Assembly (NCBI GenBank): GCA_021158465.1
Contig: JAGGUN010000005.1
Coordinates: 1-64,000 of the forward strand
From: a bacterium
GTDB taxonomy: Bacteria > UBP14 > UBA6098 > 4484-93
Length of the DNA stretch: 64,000 nucleotides
Reading direction: 5' to 3'
The translations under genes were made by a program, and so were the position numbers. The notes beneath the pieces were generated by a model. It made no database searches. It was not told the DNA's origin and saw only the letters and a list, made by a program, of their open reading frames with translations. Shown piece after piece: positions 47,801 to 56,768 of the stretch. Each line of letters begins with the position of its first letter. Within the stretch, counting starts at the first letter, position 1.

Positions 47801-48685
47801 TCATTCAACATTCTGGACCTGTTCACGGAGCTGCTCAAGCACAGCGCGCATCGAGATGGTCTCGTCTATTATCTCCTGCTGACTACTTTTCGCAGCAATA
47901 GTTGTTGCTTCTCTGTGCAATTCCTGTAGAAGGAAGTTTAGTCTTCGACCGACCGGCTCATCACATAGAAGAAGCTTCCGCATCTGAGATATATGGCTTT
48001 TAAACCGAACTATCTCCTCCTTTATATCCAACTTCTGGAGTAAAAGGAGCATCGCCGAACCTATCTTCTCCTCATAAGCAGATGTATCTGAGAACAATTC
48101 TTTTGCGTCCCTGCGAAGCTTTTTCAGAACAAGTTCCCTTACCACCCCTTCCGAGACCCTCTCTATCCGCTCGATGGATGATGAGAGCCTGTCTATACCC
48201 GCTTCAATCTGGGCTGAAAGGTTTTTCCCTTCTTCTTTTTTCATCCTGTCGAGCTCCTCAAAAGCCTCAACAAGCGAGCGATAGACAGGTTCCCATACCA
48301 CCTCATCGAGTGAGCTACTCCTATCGAGCCTGACAACATCTGGGAAAGCGGTCAAGATATTAACCTTCACATCATCGGGGAGGGGATCTTTCCCCAGAAC
48401 GCTTTTAAATACCTTTTCATACTCTCTAAAAAGAGGCATATCGAGTGTCGGTGAGACAAGTGCCCTCATACTGACAGGGGTAATCCTGATAACGACTGTT
48501 ATCCTCCCCCTTGATACCTTCTCGCGGATAAGCATATCTACCTTGTGCTCCATCTCTTGGAAGCGGGATGGGAGCTTCACGGAGATGCTCAAGAAACGGC
48601 TATTAAACGAGCTAACGGTCGTTTCAACAAATATCTCGTTCGCCTCAAAAGAGGCGCTACCAAACCCTGTAAGGCTTTTTATCAT
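47801..48685 (-). CDS. yicC: YicC-family endoribonuclease
   Basis: A 294-residue protein with the YicC N-terminal start MIKSLTGFGSA, then VSSFNSRFLSISVKLP and the RGRITVVIR strand, and the DUF1732 C-terminal end with EEIVRFKSHISQ, PVGRRLNFLLQELHREATTIAAKS (split as PVGRRLNFLLQEL and EATTIAAKS). YicC proteins are endoribonucleases that take part in sRNA turnover. It precedes gmk, the usual order. Its ATG overlaps the stop of the exosortase-linked membrane protein (ATGA), so this housekeeping gene is coupled to an envelope module. Confidence 0.93.
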   Translation of the reverse strand: MIKSLTGFGSASFEANEIFVETTVSSFNSRFLSISVKLPSRFQEMEHKVDMLIREKVSRGRITVVIRITPVSMRALVSPTLDMPLFREYEKVFKSVLGKDPLPDDVKVNILTAFPDVVRLDRSSSLDEVVWEPVYRSLVEAFEELDRMKKEEGKNLSAQIEAGIDRLSSSIERIERVSEGVVRELVLKKLRRDAKELFSDTSAYEEKIGSAMLLLLQKLDIKEEIVRFKSHISQMRKLLLCDEPVGRRLNFLLQELHREATTIAAKSSQQEIIDETISMRAVLEQLREQVQNVE

Positions 48686-49188
48686 TCAAACATCCTATCG
48701 AAGCTTATCTCTCTACCTGCAAAGAACATCCACAGGAAGAACGGCAGGAAAGCAAGGAGTAGTGCATCGATAAACACCTTTATCCCCTCGAGGGTGGACG
48801 AGCCGCTCTCGACGAAAAGGATAATAACCGATAGCGCAACTATATGGAAGATGATAAGTATTCCAAACCCGAGCAGGGCATCCCTTAACCTTTTGTTCCA
48901 GCGTATACTTTTTGATGCAACAAGCAACGCCCAGAACGGGATAATATTCGCCACAACCGGGTTTGCTGAAACGGAGAAATCCGCTCTCATACTGTATGAA
49001 CGAACGAAAAGTTCACCCGCGCGTGTGAAAAGATATTCAAGCCTCCCACGTGAGAAAACATCAGAGAACCAGACAGAAACCCTCCCTACAACAGATATAT
49101 AGGCATCCCTTACGAAAAACCAGAGAAGAAACAGGACAATAGCGGAGGCGAAAAATCTTACAAGGAACAGGAGTTTATCTTTTAGCAC
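48682..49188 (-). CDS. Polytopic membrane protein linked to the exosortase
   Basis: A 168-residue protein with about four transmembrane helices: residues ~7-27 (FLVRFFASAIVLFLLWFF), ~75-90 (NPVVANIIPFWALLVAS), ~103-125 (ALLGFGILIIFHIVALSVIIL) and ~138-156. A soluble loop of ~45 residues (SDVFSRGRLEYLFTRAGE) faces one side. I do not recognise a family from motifs. Exosortase loci often hold a small partner membrane protein (for example with XrtF and XrtH), and the position supports such a role. It starts at GTG, overlapping the exosortase end by 14 bases, and its stop overlaps the yicC ATG. Confidence 0.75.
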   Translation of the reverse strand: MLKDKLLFLVRFFASAIVLFLLWFFVRDAYISVVGRVSVWFSDVFSRGRLEYLFTRAGELFVRSYSMRADFSVSANPVVANIIPFWALLVASKSIRWNKRLRDALLGFGILIIFHIVALSVIILFVESGSSTLEGIKVFIDALLLAFLPFFLWMFFAGREISFDRMFE

Positions 49189-49708
49189 GCTCCACCACCC
49201 TGTCTATCCATAGCACCCAAAGTAGCAGAACGACCACGATAAATGTTATCTGCCAGAGGTATTCGTGAACAAAATCAAAGACCGGCCGGGAGAAGTACTC
49301 ACCAATCACCGCAAGGAGGACAAGCCTTACAATATTCAGGATAAATACAGCTGGGAGACCGACTATATGCCCCAAGAGCTTGTGCCACCCGCGAGAGGGG
49401 TAAGCAAGAATCGCTCCTGACAAGATAAAAAACGCGAACACCCCCGTGCATTCATACACAATCTCAAGGGAGATATGCTTTAGCTGAATCACTGCACCTG
49501 ATAGGGAAACAGAAAAGCCAAGAAGTTTGAGTACCCTAAAAAACAACCTTGCTGTGAAGCTAACTGGAGCAACCCTAAAAGATTCTGGAGGAAGGACATA
49601 GAGAAGAAGATACTCTGCAACGACAAAGAGTATCATAAAGATGAGGAAGCGTAGGACCAATGTTCGAGTCCCTCTCCCCCCCAGCTTTCTCCCTTTTTTA
49701 CTTGCCAT
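49175..49708 (-). CDS. Exosortase/archaeosortase family transpeptidase
   Basis: A 177-residue polytopic membrane protein (five to six helices) with the exosortase core: Cys87 in IVYECTGVFAF, Arg128 in FILNIVRLVLL, and His148 in FDFVHEYLWQ, in the correct order and spacing. Members cleave C-terminal sorting signals of secreted proteins and transfer them to an envelope acceptor. The short length fits stand-alone types such as XrtF/XrtH, not EpsH-type fusions. I start at ATG 49708; an in-frame TTG at 49753 lies within an upstream hairpin. No clear ribosome binding site is seen. Directly upstream is a 57-aa gene with a matching sorting signal; downstream is a small membrane protein. Confidence 0.87.
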   Translation of the reverse strand: MASKKGRKLGGRGTRTLVLRFLIFMILFVVAEYLLLYVLPPESFRVAPVSFTARLFFRVLKLLGFSVSLSGAVIQLKHISLEIVYECTGVFAFFILSGAILAYPSRGWHKLLGHIVGLPAVFILNIVRLVLLAVIGEYFSRPVFDFVHEYLWQITFIVVVLLLWVLWIDRVVERAKR

Positions 49709-49725
49709 ATGGGAGAGGTAGGAAA

Positions 49726-49749
49726 GGGGGAGCAAAAGAACACTCCCCC
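49726..49749 (-). terminator. Intercistronic hairpin between sorting substrate and exosortase
   Basis: Minus-strand GGGGGAG (49749-49743) pairs perfectly with CTCCCCC (49732-49726) around a 10-base loop, followed by TTTCCTACC. The short T-run makes it a partial terminator or an mRNA-stabilising hairpin that could keep substrate level above enzyme level. Confidence 0.55.
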
Positions 49750-49768
49750 ACAAGTCTACCGGATTTTC

Positions 49769-49942
49769 CTACTTTTTCCTCTTGATGAGTCGATAAACTC
49801 CGTAGCCAGCGGCACCGACAGCTATCAGGGGAATTGCCAACGGACCGATCGGAACACCGGACGGTCCGGAGGGTACGCCCTGAGCAAAGACTGCCGCCGA
49901 ACTCAGAAGAACCGCTCCAGCAGCTAAAACCGTCCTTAACAT
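49769..49942 (-). CDS. 57-aa putative exosortase substrate (signal peptide plus C-terminal sorting signal)
   Basis: A 57-residue protein with a strong ribosome binding site (AAGGAGG, 6-base gap). Residues 1-20 form a signal peptide (TVLAAGAVLLSSAAVFA), with likely cleavage before Gln21. Residues 21-31 are a Gly/Pro/Ser linker, QGVPSGPSGVP. Residues 30-57 form a sorting signal: VPIG motif, hydrophobic segment PLAIPLIAVGAAGYGVY, and a basic tail RLIKRKK. This is the tripartite design of exosortase substrates, and the VPI-G motif with a small mature part resembles, from memory, the PID-CTERM/VPIDGG class of Bacteroidota. The exosortase gene is the next one. The gene is 17 bases after the 439-aa secreted protein gene. 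It could otherwise be a plain single-pass small protein. Confidence 0.82.
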   Translation of the reverse strand: MLRTVLAAGAVLLSSAAVFAQGVPSGPSGVPIGPLAIPLIAVGAAGYGVYRLIKRKK

Positions 49943-49959: not shown

Positions 49960-51279
49960 TTACTTGATAAATAGAACCTTCTTCACCAAACTCACATCAG
50001 ACGAAACCAGCCGGACAAAGTATACTCCTGTCGGGTTGCCATCTGCATTCCAGACGGCATATCCAGAAGGTGAAGCACAATCGAGAACAGCAACCAGTTC
50101 TCCCGATATGTTCAAAACCTCGAGGGAGAAATCCTCCCTTTCAGGGACATTGTAGTATATCCTAACGGAGGAGTTAAACGGATTGGGAAACACTTCCAGA
50201 GAAAACCTATCAGGAGCCAGTTCTCCTTCTGCTCCGAGCATCCGTACGAGATGTATCTCGAATACATAGTCACAATCTCCCTTGGAGAAGCTATACTCCG
50301 TTGCATCCAGCGGGTTTATTATCACATTGCGGATCACATCGTGAACATCGACTCGATATCCTTCGGGGCAGACAATATCCCAACTGAGGATAGCAGGACC
50401 GCTCTCACCCGTAACAACAAGCCTCCAGGTGGGCTCCCCCGATGAGTTCTTCGCATCCACGCACAGAGGTCCTTCTCCGTCGAGGTAGGCAAAGAGAGGA
50501 ACAGAGGCATCGGGTAGCTCAAAAAGCGGTTTCTGACAGTCGAGCTCGTCGGCTCCATCGAGGGCAAGATATGAGGTCGCAATGATATTGGAAGCATCAG
50601 CGAAACCGGCACGACTAACAGTGAAACGCCCTACAAACTCCCAAGAGGGCTCGGGGATGGTGGCCTTCATTCGATCGAGCAGAGTAAAATTCAATGTTCC
50701 GTTCTCGGGACAGAGTACCCTCACCCAGAACGCTCTACAAACTGGAACCCAATCCTCGCCCGTGGATAACCACGGGAAAAGCGGGTCATAAAACTTCATC
50801 TGGTTTTCTTCCCAGTAGAAGTATACCCTCTGCATATTCAGGGAAGAGAGCCATATCGCCGTCCAGGAAAGCGGAACAGTATATGGATTCCCGACCAGAT
50901 TCCAGCCAGAACCATAGTAAGGGAGAACAAGGAACGTATCACCCTCAACAGAATACCCCGAGATAGCTACCTCCGTGCTATCGAATGTACTCCAGAGGAA
51001 ATATCCATCAAAGAGCCGGAAGTTTGCTGGCACACGGAACTCACTAATAGTTGGATCATATCTGTAGATAAAACTCCCCTCACCAGTTGGTCCAGAGCCC
51101 ATACTGAAAGACGGTATCTGCCCGCGGAGCTGGAGCGGGATAGAGACCGGGTCAGCAACAAGGGATGTGGAGAACATATTCCACCCCCTCGAAAGCACAG
51201 TCGTTACCGTGTCGGTACCTTGGGCAAGAAGGGTCCCAACGGAGAGTAAGATAATCAGAACCGCAACTAGATATTTCAA
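49960..51279 (-). CDS. Secreted protein with GWN module and T9SS-type C-terminal domain
   Basis: A 439-residue protein starting at TTG, placed by AAGGAGG 7 bases upstream and a signal peptide (VAVLIILLSVGTLLAQG). Residues ~30-160 form a module with SRGWNMFSTSL, FIYRYDP, FDGYFLWSTFD and SGWNLVGNPY. A beta-sandwich follows (FVGRFTVSRAGFADASNI), then SWDIVCPEGYRVDVHD, and the last ~85 residues are a T9SS type A-like domain (EVFPNPFNSSV to VKKVLFIK). It aligns in order with the last third of the 1806-residue protein just upstream and is probably its shortened duplicate. The sorting-substrate gene follows 17 bases later. Role: cell surface or secreted; no enzymatic motif. Confidence 0.87.
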   Translation of the reverse strand: MKYLVAVLIILLSVGTLLAQGTDTVTTVLSRGWNMFSTSLVADPVSIPLQLRGQIPSFSMGSGPTGEGSFIYRYDPTISEFRVPANFRLFDGYFLWSTFDSTEVAISGYSVEGDTFLVLPYYGSGWNLVGNPYTVPLSWTAIWLSSLNMQRVYFYWEENQMKFYDPLFPWLSTGEDWVPVCRAFWVRVLCPENGTLNFTLLDRMKATIPEPSWEFVGRFTVSRAGFADASNIIATSYLALDGADELDCQKPLFELPDASVPLFAYLDGEGPLCVDAKNSSGEPTWRLVVTGESGPAILSWDIVCPEGYRVDVHDVIRNVIINPLDATEYSFSKGDCDYVFEIHLVRMLGAEGELAPDRFSLEVFPNPFNSSVRIYYNVPEREDFSLEVLNISGELVAVLDCASPSGYAVWNADGNPTGVYFVRLVSSDVSLVKKVLFIK

Positions 51280-51347: not shown

Positions 51348-54300
51348 CTATTTAAGTAATACCATCTTCTTCGTTTCGACAAAGTTACCAGCCCGAAGCT
51401 TATACAGATACACCCCTGTCGGCACAGGCACACCATCGTCATCCATCCCATCCCAGATGATAGAATAGTACCCTGCCTCCTGATTCTCGTCCACAAGGGT
51501 AACCACCTTTTGCCCAAGCAGGTTGTAAATCTCAAGCACAACATCCGTATTCTCAGGAAGTGCATAGTTCACAGCTGTTGCGGCATTGAACGGATTAGGA
51601 TAGTTCTGCGAGAGAGCATAGGTGGTGGGAATAGCCAGCTGTTCAACATCGGCTGCTATCCTGGTAACGACAATCTCAAAGTCCCGCGTGTCTCCTGACT
51701 CGTGGAAGGTGTAAGAGGGTTCCTCTACCATATTGACATCCGCTCCGGTGGAGAGGTCGTGCAGCACAACGGAGTATCCCTCTGTCGGCACGAAGAGCTC
51801 CCCATCAGCAGGCCAGCTGATTGTCATAGTGCCAAGGCTCGTTACATCACCATAAGCCTCGATATGGAAGCTCCATACCTTTGGCACAGATGTCTCAAGA
51901 GGTGCCTTGTTGTCGACCGCCAGCGCAGAATCAGAAGCGACAAAATAGGAGATGAAAGTCTGCCCTGATGGAATAAATCCAGCAGGTATGTGAAGCATAT
52001 CGGATGGGTCAAACCCGTCAGAAGCACCCGCCGATGTTGCCATAACACAGGGGTCTTCCATGCCGGCTCTACTCGCAACAATCTCTATACCGATGCTATC
52101 AACTACCACTGTTCTCTTGAACAGTCTTGTGCCTGTTGCCTTGGCAGGTGGTAGAGGTTCATAGCGGAACGGAAGCGTTCCACCTTCGTCAGTATCAAGC
52201 ACTTGCACCCAGAAACCGACCCAAGGGTCAAGCATCCTGTCGACCATACCAGCCGGAACACCAAACCCTATACCTGTTGCTGGATTATAGTAGTAGAACC
52301 CAAACTGGTCACCGAGCCAGACATAGTAGGATGTTCCTATACCGGAGAACTCCGGGTCACTGCAGACAGCGTGCCAGTCAACGAGCTTACTGTAAGGGTT
52401 CCCCATCATATACCAGCCAGTTGAGGCTTCGGTATAGGGCAGGACAAATGTTGTATCCCTTGTGAACGGCTCACCGGAAACATCGAAGTGGGAGTCGTCG
52501 AACCAGGACCAGAGGAAATACCCTGTGCCGATGTCGAACGATGTTGGAACAACAAACTCCCTGTCCTCGGAATCGTATTTGTAGATAAGGGAACGCCACG
52601 GGTCGGCATACCACGGCGATATATCGTCACGCAGTTGCATACTGACATTGTTCGGCTCAGCCTCAACAGGAACAGATATCAGATTCCAGTCCTTGTGGAG
52701 CGCCGGATTCACCTGGATAGTGGCTACAAATGGGTTGGGGCTCTCATCGTCATCGAGGAAGATGTAAATCGGGAACTCGTATGTCCCTGGTATCAGGTCG
52801 AGGCTGCCGTCATATATTATATAGAATGTATAGCATTCACCTGGCGGGATGACACCTGCTGGCGGATAAACCGACAATCCGTTCGGGAGGGTGGCATGCC
52901 CAGAATCGATGATGTAGACATAGTGGGTCACACGCGAGTGGAACCAGAACCTGCCCTCGCTGTCGATATCGAGTCCACCGGTCGAGAACAGCCCCGAAGC
53001 ATCACCGGGGAGCGTAAACGAGCTGATTATCCTCTTGTTCTCGAAGTCCATCTCGTAGCAGATATCCATACCCAGTTCTGCAACCCAGATTGTCCTCCTA
53101 CCGGGATGGAACGCCAGACCACCCGTGTAGAAGTAGTTGAGGCTATCGATTATGGTGCCTGGATTGGGCCAGCTCTTCCCCCTCACCTTATAGATAGGCG
53201 TACCAAGAAGGACACCACCATACATAAAGTAGTCAGACGAGCCGAGATAGAAAACATCCTCGACAGGGTCATACGCTATACCAAATTCGCCCATCTGATC
53301 CCAGATATGAGCAGGGTCGGTGAGGGAGTCAACCATCATATGTGACACAGGGTCCCAGGCAAAGAGCCCTGTTGCTGCAATGGATGTATTCCAGAGGTAA
53401 TCTCCCACTCTCTGATTGTTGAGGGCGATAGCGGTATCCGGGAGCCAATAGGCGTAAGCGACCTCACCTGTAAACGAGCCATCAGCGGTGGAGAACTTGA
53501 AGAACCTGTTCGTTGCCATATCGGTAATCCAGTAGTAGTTATCGTTCTGAATTCCGATGCCCCAATCGGTAACGATACCTGCAAGCGGGTCAACACGGAA
53601 GGAGTCGACAATATCGCCTGTAGCAAGCGTCCTCGAAAGACTCCTATCGGCGGATGCTCCGTCGAAGCTCGAAGGAACTATGCCTTTTTTCACATCCATA
53701 ATATCTATCGCACTCTCGGGAGCAACACGAGAAGCAGAGATACCGTCGTCGAATGAAAGCGATTTCGTGAAGGGCATTATCGCCTCAGGACTGACATATA
53801 TCTCAATAGGTTGGTCGGTCGGGTTGCATATCGTCACGGGAACAGAATCGACCGTCCCATAGGTCACCTCACCTGTTATATGATCGGATGGTGTAAGATG
53901 AAGCGGGGTCATCCGGATAATTACCTCTGTCGTATCGCCTTCATAAACATTTGCGCTGACAAATCCAGGGAAATATCCCATCTTTGTTCCGACTATCTGC
54001 TTTGCACCGGCAGGAATATTATCGAGGAAGAACTCACCGCCTGTATTCGAGTAGGTCACACCTGGACCGCACCTAACCCTCGCGTTGTAGATAGGCTCGT
54101 GTGTCTCGATGTCCACGACATATCCCTTGACAGCACCGGTGGGCCAGCTATATCCCTCGAAATCATCGAGATACCAGCCGGGATAATCATTTATGGACCC
54201 ATCGGAGGCGAACCAGAACATAATGTCGGTAGCGTCACCTTCATACGCCGAGAGGTCGAGCCAGACCTGCTCCCAGCCGCTGCTACTGCCTGAATAAGCA

Positions 54301-56768
54301 GGTAGACCACCAAGAACATTGCCGAAGGAAGTGGAAATCACTGTAGGATAGCCTCCTTCCGGGAAATGAAGCCACCAGTTATCACCGTTGTCGGTGGATA
54401 CCCAGATGTTTCCTCCGTCATACCCCGTCGTAAGATAATTCTCCATATCATACCAGTGCCAGAAGGAGATATAAGCATACGGTCTATCAAGATGGACAAA
54501 CAGTTGCCAGGAAGCATTGTTCATACCATAGTCTCCGCCGATGACCGTTCCCCAGCAGTATGGTGCAGAATGAGCCGCAGCGGGTCCCGTTCCAGAGGGC
54601 GTTCCCCACTCCCAGAAAGCATCCTCACCCACAACAAAACCGCCATCATCTGTATCAAAGTCCTCTGTCCAGTCGGGGGTCTGCGGATCGAGGATAATGT
54701 CGGCAACATAAGTCGTCTCATTGGAGACAACCTCCACATCATACACCACCTCTACGCCATACCCAGGATATGAGGCGACTATCGAGTATATTCCCGATTC
54801 GAGAGGTCCAGCGAGGTAGACTCCTCCCGTGGTGGTATAGAGGAGAGTATCGTGTGTGCCACCGATATCTATAGCGATCCAGGGGTCACCATAAGGACCG
54901 GTATCGGAGAGGTCGGCAAGACCTTGTATATATCCTATCGGCATCGGCTCGAGCACAAAATTCACAAATGCTGTATCGTCGAGAGCCACAGATACACCAT
55001 AAGCAGTATCTGGATAGAAACCGGGGCAGGATGCAACTACAGTATATGAGCCGGGCGGAACGGATATCGAGTAATCGCCCGATGGTGACGCAGAATGGGT
55101 AGTCCTCCCGAGCTCAACAACAAGCACCTCTGCTCCCCCGTTGTCCGTTCTACCGACAAGGTTTACATTGCCGGCAATCACCGCGTGATGCGGTTCGACA
55201 GGAACAAACTCAACGGCGCTTTGGTCCTCGAGTCCGTCTGCATCGGTGTCATAAGTTCCATTATAAACATACTGGGTGTATTCCGCATCATCTCTCCTTA
55301 CACCAACGGTAGAAGATGTCAGAACTCCGGAGGAAATGGTCTTATACTTGACTATGAGCTCGCCGTTATCCCCCGGAACGGGAGCGGAAGGATAAGCAGG
55401 GTCAATAAGTATCACCTCAAAGGTGGAGAGGTCCCCTGTTGCCCAATCCTCGGCATTATTCCATTCTATGACGAACCTATGATGAGAGATGTCGTTGTAG
55501 ACATACACAGAGCCCGCGGTAGGACACCAGAGGGGATCATAAAACGCAAAGTCATCCCACAGCGGAGCGAACATAAAGTCAGGAGCAGATGGGTCGGAGA
55601 GCTCATAGTTGGCGTAGAAATCGTCTCCCGGGTCCTCTCCGAAGCTTATCCACCCGTTCGTGGATACCCAGACAGTATCATAATCCCTTCCATAGAACCT
55701 GAACGGGAACGGCAGCTCAACAGGTGCATGGTTGTCATCCCAGCTACCCCAGCCATAGAGGTCCCAATCGATGAATGTGCCGACACCTGCTATCTCCACC
55801 CAGTCCGTATCGGGGACAAACTCTCCATCATCCTCATCATCGTAAGCAAAGTATGGACCGTATATCACGAAACAGAATGTATCAGAATAGGCGGTATTGG
55901 GCGGGGAGAACAAATCGGTGGCGGTAATATAATAGCAAACCTCCGTCCAGACAGGCTGAGGTGGTATCGTAACGAAGTAAGAGTCCGGCACAGCAGTCTC
56001 CGACATAGGAAGAGATGTCCAGCCACTGCCAGCGTTATAGTAGACATAAACGCTTGTCGGGTCGACACCGGAGAAGTCGGTTATCGTAGCGCCGACACCG
56101 TATCCCGACATACCATCCGGCTGGTCATCAAGCGGTGTATGAGAGATAACTGGAGGCGCAGGCTCACTTGCACCACCACCGTAGACATAAACAGAGTCCA
56201 CAATCCACCAAAAATCGTCGTAGGAACGGTAAAGAAAGGCAAACTTTACATGGCTCTCATGGGCAGCTTTATCACTGACATCCCGTGTACAGTATGCAGA
56301 ATCAACATCAGTAAAGGTGAAAAGCGTCTCGGACCAACTGACACCGTCGTCGGTACTCAAGAGAACATAGGCAAGATGCGTCCCTGCAGTGTAAGTATTG
56401 AAGAAATGCCAGAAACTAACAATCACCGTGTCATAGAAGCTGCAATCAAGGGTGGGAGTTATAAGCCAATCATTACAAGAATCAGCTGGTGGATACAAGA
56501 GAGGGTCAGAATAGAGTATCTCGGCAAAATTCCCGTGAGCAGCCGGAACGAACGGCGATGTTGTAGTGGTAGGTCCAAGATGCCAGTCATCGAGAGTGTC
56601 CGGGTCTCCACTTATATCTGTGTTCCCCAGAGCTAACTTCGTCCAACCGGGAGGAAGCCAGCTATCTTCAAAATTCTCCTCCAATAAATAATCAGCCAAC
56701 AGCGAACCGAACATTAAGACGAGTGTAGAAAACACCACTCCCAGAAACACACCCAGCCGACGGCTCAT
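51348..56768 (-). CDS. Giant multidomain secreted surface protein with T9SS-type C-terminal domain
   Basis: An 1806-residue protein. Order: signal peptide; choice-of-anchor-J-like jelly roll (about 28-195, ENFEDSWLPPGW); an Ig-like domain; an Asp-rich beta domain (YDDEDDGEFVPD, about 315-530); two carboxypeptidase-regulatory-like repeats (about 535-700); an immune-inhibitor-A-like jelly roll (DFDTDDGGFVVGED, WGTPSGTGPAAAHS, about 705-880); another regulatory-like repeat; a beta-propeller-like region (about 1040-1300); a GWN-type module from DWNLISVP (1360) to GWYMMGNPYSK; a beta-sandwich; and a T9SS type A-like domain (SQNYPNPFNAAT to TKKMVLLK). Probably a surface or released adhesin-like protein. 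It starts at ATG after AAGGAGG and heads the unit containing the exosortase. Confidence 0.9.
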   Translation of the reverse strand: MSRRLGVFLGVVFSTLVLMFGSLLADYLLEENFEDSWLPPGWTKLALGNTDISGDPDTLDDWHLGPTTTTSPFVPAAHGNFAEILYSDPLLYPPADSCNDWLITPTLDCSFYDTVIVSFWHFFNTYTAGTHLAYVLLSTDDGVSWSETLFTFTDVDSAYCTRDVSDKAAHESHVKFAFLYRSYDDFWWIVDSVYVYGGGASEPAPPVISHTPLDDQPDGMSGYGVGATITDFSGVDPTSVYVYYNAGSGWTSLPMSETAVPDSYFVTIPPQPVWTEVCYYITATDLFSPPNTAYSDTFCFVIYGPYFAYDDEDDGEFVPDTDWVEIAGVGTFIDWDLYGWGSWDDNHAPVELPFPFRFYGRDYDTVWVSTNGWISFGEDPGDDFYANYELSDPSAPDFMFAPLWDDFAFYDPLWCPTAGSVYVYNDISHHRFVIEWNNAEDWATGDLSTFEVILIDPAYPSAPVPGDNGELIVKYKTISSGVLTSSTVGVRRDDAEYTQYVYNGTYDTDADGLEDQSAVEFVPVEPHHAVIAGNVNLVGRTDNGGAEVLVVELGRTTHSASPSGDYSISVPPGSYTVVASCPGFYPDTAYGVSVALDDTAFVNFVLEPMPIGYIQGLADLSDTGPYGDPWIAIDIGGTHDTLLYTTTGGVYLAGPLESGIYSIVASYPGYGVEVVYDVEVVSNETTYVADIILDPQTPDWTEDFDTDDGGFVVGEDAFWEWGTPSGTGPAAAHSAPYCWGTVIGGDYGMNNASWQLFVHLDRPYAYISFWHWYDMENYLTTGYDGGNIWVSTDNGDNWWLHFPEGGYPTVISTSFGNVLGGLPAYSGSSSGWEQVWLDLSAYEGDATDIMFWFASDGSINDYPGWYLDDFEGYSWPTGAVKGYVVDIETHEPIYNARVRCGPGVTYSNTGGEFFLDNIPAGAKQIVGTKMGYFPGFVSANVYEGDTTEVIIRMTPLHLTPSDHITGEVTYGTVDSVPVTICNPTDQPIEIYVSPEAIMPFTKSLSFDDGISASRVAPESAIDIMDVKKGIVPSSFDGASADRSLSRTLATGDIVDSFRVDPLAGIVTDWGIGIQNDNYYWITDMATNRFFKFSTADGSFTGEVAYAYWLPDTAIALNNQRVGDYLWNTSIAATGLFAWDPVSHMMVDSLTDPAHIWDQMGEFGIAYDPVEDVFYLGSSDYFMYGGVLLGTPIYKVRGKSWPNPGTIIDSLNYFYTGGLAFHPGRRTIWVAELGMDICYEMDFENKRIISSFTLPGDASGLFSTGGLDIDSEGRFWFHSRVTHYVYIIDSGHATLPNGLSVYPPAGVIPPGECYTFYIIYDGSLDLIPGTYEFPIYIFLDDDESPNPFVATIQVNPALHKDWNLISVPVEAEPNNVSMQLRDDISPWYADPWRSLIYKYDSEDREFVVPTSFDIGTGYFLWSWFDDSHFDVSGEPFTRDTTFVLPYTEASTGWYMMGNPYSKLVDWHAVCSDPEFSGIGTSYYVWLGDQFGFYYYNPATGIGFGVPAGMVDRMLDPWVGFWVQVLDTDEGGTLPFRYEPLPPAKATGTRLFKRTVVVDSIGIEIVASRAGMEDPCVMATSAGASDGFDPSDMLHIPAGFIPSGQTFISYFVASDSALAVDNKAPLETSVPKVWSFHIEAYGDVTSLGTMTISWPADGELFVPTEGYSVVLHDLSTGADVNMVEEPSYTFHESGDTRDFEIVVTRIAADVEQLAIPTTYALSQNYPNPFNAATAVNYALPENTDVVLEIYNLLGQKVVTLVDENQEAGYYSIIWDGMDDDGVPVPTGVYLYKLRAGNFVETKKMVLLK

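Follow-up and report, generated by a model that had tools for sequence, protein, structure and literature searches.

Tiny single-substrate exosortase systems are already known from Bacteroidota, where models describe the PID-CTERM protein (NF046080), exosortase X (XrtX; NF046081) and an XrtX-associated membrane protein (NF046082). In our sample of Bacteroidota class genomes, 131 of 295 encoded PID-CTERM proteins, mostly one copy each; such genomes held 1 to 5 of these proteins plus a few longer ones, and the 27 examples that we extracted were mostly 59 to 87 aa long. A profile search placed an exosortase within 1.5 kb of the PID-CTERM gene in 18 of 30 loci, directly downstream on the same strand in 15 of them. 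The exosortases tested were XrtX or XrtX-like, and several loci have the XrtX-associated protein, or a protein that matches it more weakly, as the next gene. In the literature searched, we found neither a mention of PID-CTERM nor an experimental study of a tiny-substrate exosortase.

Other described systems resemble the present locus in single respects. Archaeosortase A (ArtA) cleaves its substrate, to which a lipid is attached, and uses Cys173 and Arg214 (PMC9263693); for exosortase substrates, the attached group has been described as unidentified (PMC7468200). In the GlyGly-CTERM/rhombosortase system, the protease adjoins its target in single-target genomes (PMC3237569). We pair enzyme and substrate by the same adjacency argument, although rhombosortase is an unrelated rhomboid serine protease with targets of ordinary size. 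The PExPT-CTERM protein, the target of XrtJ (TIGR04200), has a model of 57 positions, to which the tiny protein studied here aligned weakly over nearly its full length (13 bits; cut-off, 40), with a different motif. The nearest models to our enzyme are exosortase H (XrtH; TIGR04177) at 71.8 bits (cut-off, 86) and archaeosortase B (ArtB; TIGR04144) at 96.8 bits (cut-off, 150). Most XrtH/ArtB-related loci likewise have a similar partner protein after the enzyme, but their neighboring CTERM proteins are 150 to 550 aa long, sometimes more than 1,000 aa, and often carry LTxWG-type motifs.

We also noted several other arrangements among the exosortase loci collected. In two Krumholzibacteriota-type loci (L044:510-1514 and L047:929-1939), the exosortase is immediately preceded by a 334- to 336-aa protein ending in VPLFT(V/T)PVVTILVLALILAAAVFMRRR; the two look like a further dedicated pair, with a tail of the VP..P type. 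A 1,273-aa protein with a CTERM-like tail immediately precedes an exosortase in a Caldisericia genome (L051:4096-7917), and two exosortases have long C-terminal extensions, possibly fusions, that bring them to 653 and 603 aa in total (L023:7872-9833 and L049:7854-9665).

The tiny protein, the exosortase and the partner

The first-pass annotation of the window (the whole 64,000-nucleotide stretch of DNA analyzed here) had described three minus-strand genes as a minimal exosortase module, and all three open reading frames were confirmed at the coordinates below. The features of the locus, including the two genes upstream of the module, are as follows.

51348..56768 (-), 1806-aa T9SS type A cargo with class-wide orthologues, the constant upstream neighbor of the cassette
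49960..51279 (-), 439-aa protein with a T9SS type A tail, a truncated relative of the C-terminal part of the cargo (residues 1353-1806)
49769..49942 (-), putative tiny exosortase substrate of 57 aa (sequence and five-member alignment)
49942-49883 (-), signal peptide of the tiny protein, aa 1-20 (subdivided by eye)
Minus strand, linker QGVPSGPSG of the tiny protein, aa 21-29 (subdivided by eye)
49855-49844 (-), motif VPIG of the tiny protein, aa 30-33 (subdivided by eye)
Conserved helix of the tiny protein, aa 34-50 (sequence and alignment)
Basic end of the tiny protein, RLIKRKK, aa 51-57
49717..49760 (-), stem-loop between the tiny gene and the exosortase gene, GGTAG..GGGGGAGTG / TGCTCCCCC..CTACC, then a T/C-rich stretch
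49175..49708 (-), exosortase of 177 aa with Cys87, Arg128 and His148 (profile matches and conserved residues)
48682..49188 (-), partner membrane protein of 168 aa, with a GTG start and a 14-nt overlap with the exosortase gene

A strong Shine-Dalgarno sequence (AAGGAGG) precedes the tiny gene, whose start lies 17 nt beyond the upstream stop codon and which encodes MLRTVLAAGAVLLSSAAVFA-QGVPSGPSG-VPIG-PLAIPLIAVGAAGYGVY-RLIKRKK. No NCBIfam model claims this protein or the exact exosortase subfamily. A chance open reading frame was ruled out by conservation in three families; between the window genome and its congener, candidate division Zixibacteria bacterium 4484_93, dN/dS of the tiny gene was about 0.18, a value resting on just 12 changes. 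Outside the genus, overall identity of the tiny proteins is 42 to 54%, and the A20-Q21 pair, the VPxG motif and the helix are kept. Three invariant residues (A20, Q21 and P24) precede the motif region, and 14 follow from V30 onward. Mean pairwise identity rose from 36% in the signal peptide and 49% in the linker to 77% in the helix, which holds invariant A, I, P, G and Y positions, and 83% in the motif (VP[IV]G in all five proteins). The tripartite tail of motif, helix and basic end described at first pass is present, and it is conserved in the relatives. The minute size of the presumed product also held, with an adjustment: the linker has 9 residues rather than the 11 first given, and the stretch from Gln at the presumed signal peptidase site to VP spans 7 to 10 residues across the tiny proteins.

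The 177-aa protein belongs to the exosortase/archaeosortase superfamily, with cleavage and conjugation of the sorting signal predicted from its sequence. It scored 58.5 bits against PF09721 (cut-off, 25.7) and 66.2 bits against TIGR04178 (cut-off, 23), and Glu86, Cys87, Asn125, Arg128 and His148 were invariant across 36 diverse exosortase homologues, which bears out the first identification from Cys87, Arg128 and His148 in the family order. The Cys-Arg spacing of 41 equals that between Cys173 and Arg214 of ArtA. The enzyme is the only PF09721 exosortase in the window genome.

The third gene had been described simply as a small polytopic membrane protein. This is correct, and a resemblance to a dead exosortase had been missed. 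In a profile-profile comparison, 36 exosortases matched 38 partners with 94.6% probability (P = 6.8e-8; 142 columns) and a score of 52.7. Reversed profiles gave P values of about 0.1 to 0.2, and the best of 60 block-shuffled profiles scored 40.3. The AlphaFold2 models of the exosortase and the partner were confident (pLDDT, 92 and 91 for the pair) and share the same order of elements, namely, an N-terminal helical part, three short strands, two short helices and two long helices; a fold search of both models against the PDB returned nothing significant. In the profile alignment, the partner does not retain the exosortase Cys and Arg, and the ECTG signature is absent from all 38 partners. Because the profile match and the shared element order come without Cys, Arg or ECTG, the partner is probably a catalytically dead relative of the exosortase fold. 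As a side observation, a partner bearing an N..P motif and one conserved His comes after the exosortase in most XrtH/ArtB-like loci, from Zixibacteria, Myxococcota and other groups (L014 to L066); judged by profile, it resembles a dead exosortase paralogue.

Distribution of the cassette and likeness to PID-CTERM/XrtX

A search of 60 relatives turned up the exosortase in five members of the window's class (the window genome, G001, G002, G005 and G013), which represent three families. All five have the identical order of tiny gene, exosortase and partner, and their exosortases form one clade (support, 99/96; 93 in a larger tree). The tiny-protein profile matched each of the five strongly and exactly once (E below 1e-24); the 12 class genomes without the exosortase yielded no match below 0.01, and at 1e-4 the 386 genomes searched added none beyond the five. 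Within the window genome, the single match had an E value of 9.6e-31 and the next best had 0.16. A multi-substrate exosortase was thereby set aside, as the profile picked up just the one tail of its kind in the genome; the one-substrate status rests on this search, whose profile was built from close relatives only and would let dissimilar tails escape. The cassette is thus known from five examples, in genomes that are mostly or all metagenome assemblies. Its retention in the same order in three families agrees with the dedicated single-substrate module with a partner that the first-pass annotation had proposed. On the three points chosen there beforehand as decisive, the gene is present in the relatives, its tail is retained and the Cys, Arg and His of the enzyme are conserved.

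In G002 and G005, the two genomes of one family, the exosortase probably starts at a TTG codon that is not in frame with the rest of the gene (L011:5975-6020 and L012:8005-8040). Both frame junctions contain a run of ten A, and one extra A would restore the frame. These genes are candidates for transcriptional slippage or for a common assembly artifact.

The anatomy of the tiny protein is that of PID-CTERM proteins, as first suspected: both are tiny and have a signal peptide, a Pro/Gly-rich linker, a VPI-type motif, a helix with AG.AYG and a basic end. PID-CTERM genes also often lie by XrtX and have an exosortase and a small polytopic protein directly after them and a T9SS-tailed gene before them. 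The profiles of the two protein groups matched with 82% probability (P = 1.1e-5). Membership in the family did not hold, however, with the tiny protein scoring 6.4 bits against NF046080 (E = 8; cut-off, 26); it lacks the Asp of PID and has an added IPxIAV core. Searches of the 386 relatives with NF046080 and TIGR04200 returned nothing over the cut-offs. The exosortase scored 69.7 bits against NF046081 (cut-off, 170) and stands opposite XrtX across a tree split with 99% support. The partner had no match to NF046082, and a profile comparison (0.2%) ruled out the XrtX-associated protein as its relative; against the XrtH-associated membrane protein (NF041730), it scored 16.2 bits (cut-off, 35). 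Since the enzyme stayed below the XrtX, XrtH and ArtB cut-offs and the other tested cut-offs were likewise not reached, we do not file the system under PID-CTERM/XrtX, XrtH or ArtB. The version in the window differs from the known tiny single-substrate systems in motif, exosortase clade, partner and phylum.

The T9SS cargo gene, the empty site and the hairpin

The constant fourth gene of the cassette, a T9SS cargo, had been overlooked at first pass, as had the hairpin after the tiny gene. Both genes upstream of the tiny gene have a TIGR04183 tail (45.7 and 30.5 bits; cut-off, 23), and the genome encodes the SprA translocon (670 bits summed) and the PorU sortase (609 bits). In G002, G005 and G013, a cargo of 1,786 to 1,847 aa lies directly upstream of the tiny gene and is colinear over its full length with the 1806-aa protein (32 to 50% identity). 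The 439-aa protein, which looks like a truncated duplicate of the last ~450 residues of the cargo, separates the cargo from the tiny gene in no genus but the window's (the window genome and its congener). Downstream of the cassette, the genes differ among the three families, and the upstream cargo remains constant.

Relatives of the cargo occur class-wide, including in genomes without the exosortase, and at least nine class genomes have the cargo without the cassette. Because this is the state of most class genomes, the cassette is not needed for cargo export. In the family of G013, four genomes without the exosortase (G004, G007, G009 and G011) have a gene for a 103- to 105-aa protein 86 to 260 nt after the cargo; by inspection, it looks like a member of the DUF59/MIP18 family. 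G013 has the same gene (57 to 74% identity) 1,316 nt after the cargo, with the tiny gene, exosortase and partner in between. The locus is a natural empty site: between the cargo and the shared downstream gene, the cassette is either wholly there or cleanly missing. The cargo tree requires two changes of cassette presence, and the history may have been either a single gain followed by losses or a single transfer.

The T9SS neighbor recurs in Bacteroidota. A T9SS type A-tailed gene over the cut-off lies just upstream of the PID-CTERM gene in 14 of 30 loci, which are the best-scoring PID-CTERM matches counted with no genome background rate alongside and with the kinship of the sampled genomes ignored; in the other 16, the upstream gene has no such tail over the cut-off. 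At least six loci (L104, L105, L116, L120, L125 and L131) have the complete order of T9SS gene, tiny gene and exosortase, so that the four-gene arrangement is seen in both phyla.

All five cassette loci have a strong hairpin after the tiny gene and before the exosortase (-20 to -32 kcal/mol), with unrelated sequences and a conserved position. The stem-loop in the window (-22.7 kcal/mol; z, -2.7; -3.1 to -6.3 at the other four loci) resembles a terminator or attenuator. It was not listed by a consensus terminator scan of the window, because its T run is too short. By inspection, genomes without the exosortase have a hairpin-like sequence and a T run directly after the cargo. Across the cassette loci, the gap between the preceding gene and the tiny gene is about 17 to 77 nt. 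The simplest reading is that one abundant transcript would carry the cargo and the tiny gene, with reduced read-through into the enzyme genes.

Proposed mechanism and alternative readings

The position of the cassette behind a T9SS cargo suggests that two export routes cooperate at the cell surface. We propose, at even chances of being right, a dedicated exosortase cassette that is attached to the cargo locus and works as follows. The cargo and the tiny gene would be strongly cotranscribed, and the hairpin would pass only part of the transcription on to the exosortase and partner, so that substrate would exceed enzyme. Signal peptidase would cut after AxA to leave a short Pro/Gly-rich peptide with an N-terminal Gln, in keeping with the Q-rule of Bacteroidota (PMC5837995, PMC10653852), and the VP[IV]G-helix-basic tail would retain this peptide in the inner membrane. 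Working as a complex with the Cys-less, exosortase-like partner, the exosortase would use Cys87 to cut at or near VP[IV]G and would attach a lipid or glycolipid at the new C terminus, in the manner of archaeosortase A with its own substrate. The resulting conjugate of roughly 9 to 14 residues, C-terminally conjugated and perhaps N-terminally blocked, would move to the envelope and there form part of, or anchor, a surface structure made up of the giant T9SS cargo. A counterpoint is that the helix (77% identity) is better conserved than the supposed product (49%), which would be odd if the product matters. Either the fit among enzyme, partner and tail is very specific for one substrate, or the tail has a role of its own.

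That conservation pattern is also the main attraction of reading the tiny protein as a stable small subunit or regulator of the exosortase-partner complex, a bound tail mimic whose enzyme has its true substrate elsewhere. Besides the motif, the helix with its invariant A, I, P, G and Y is the most conserved part, and the supposed product is variable and minute. Yet the signal peptide, linker, Pro-containing motif, helix and basic end are ordered as in known substrates, the 1 to 5 PID-CTERM proteins and few longer ones per Bacteroidota genome fit substrates better, and the profile search yielded just this one tail in the genome; we regard a subunit role as distinctly unlikely. The same pattern bears on a diffusible, pheromone-like signal, released as a peptide and capped as pyroglutamate. 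Its tiny product and the conserved Gln after AxA, which matches the Q-rule, would suit such a signal, but the Q-rule reportedly does not hold generally beyond Bacteroidota, the product is poorly conserved among relatives and the conserved cassette comes without a receptor, kinase or transporter. The first-pass annotation had listed a free signal among its options; because the conserved parts are the helix and motif rather than the short product, we consider this highly improbable.

The cassette could instead be a self-contained passenger that sits behind the cargo gene for expression and has no functional tie to it. Such a module would be at home with the clean cassette boundary, the cargos that lack a cassette and the Bacteroidota loci that lack a T9SS-tailed upstream gene. 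It fits less well with an upstream neighbor that is the same in three families despite different downstream genes and that recurs as a T9SS-tailed gene in another phylum beside a different exosortase clade and partner, and we judge it unlikely. Going beyond the dedicated cassette that we favor, a hybrid display route is a tentative idea that we hold to be rather doubtful: the lipid- or glycan-linked tiny peptide made by the exosortase may serve as anchor, acceptor or co-component for the neighboring T9SS giant, with the coupling present in two phyla that use different exosortase clades and unrelated partners, and the Zixibacteria-type partner may be a pseudo-exosortase that heterodimerizes with the enzyme.

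The point of interest is the linkage of T9SS and exosortase across two phyla. Previously, the two routes were tied only by a surface colonization phenotype common to XrtF and T9SS mutants of F. johnsoniae (PMC10936215). With a minute substrate, one enzyme and one partner, the system would be the simplest one in which to identify the conjugate by mass spectrometry; the PID-CTERM/XrtX loci of Bacteroidota provide a cultivable stand-in for it. The recurrent T9SS neighbor makes a testable link between two routes of surface display that have so far been treated apart.
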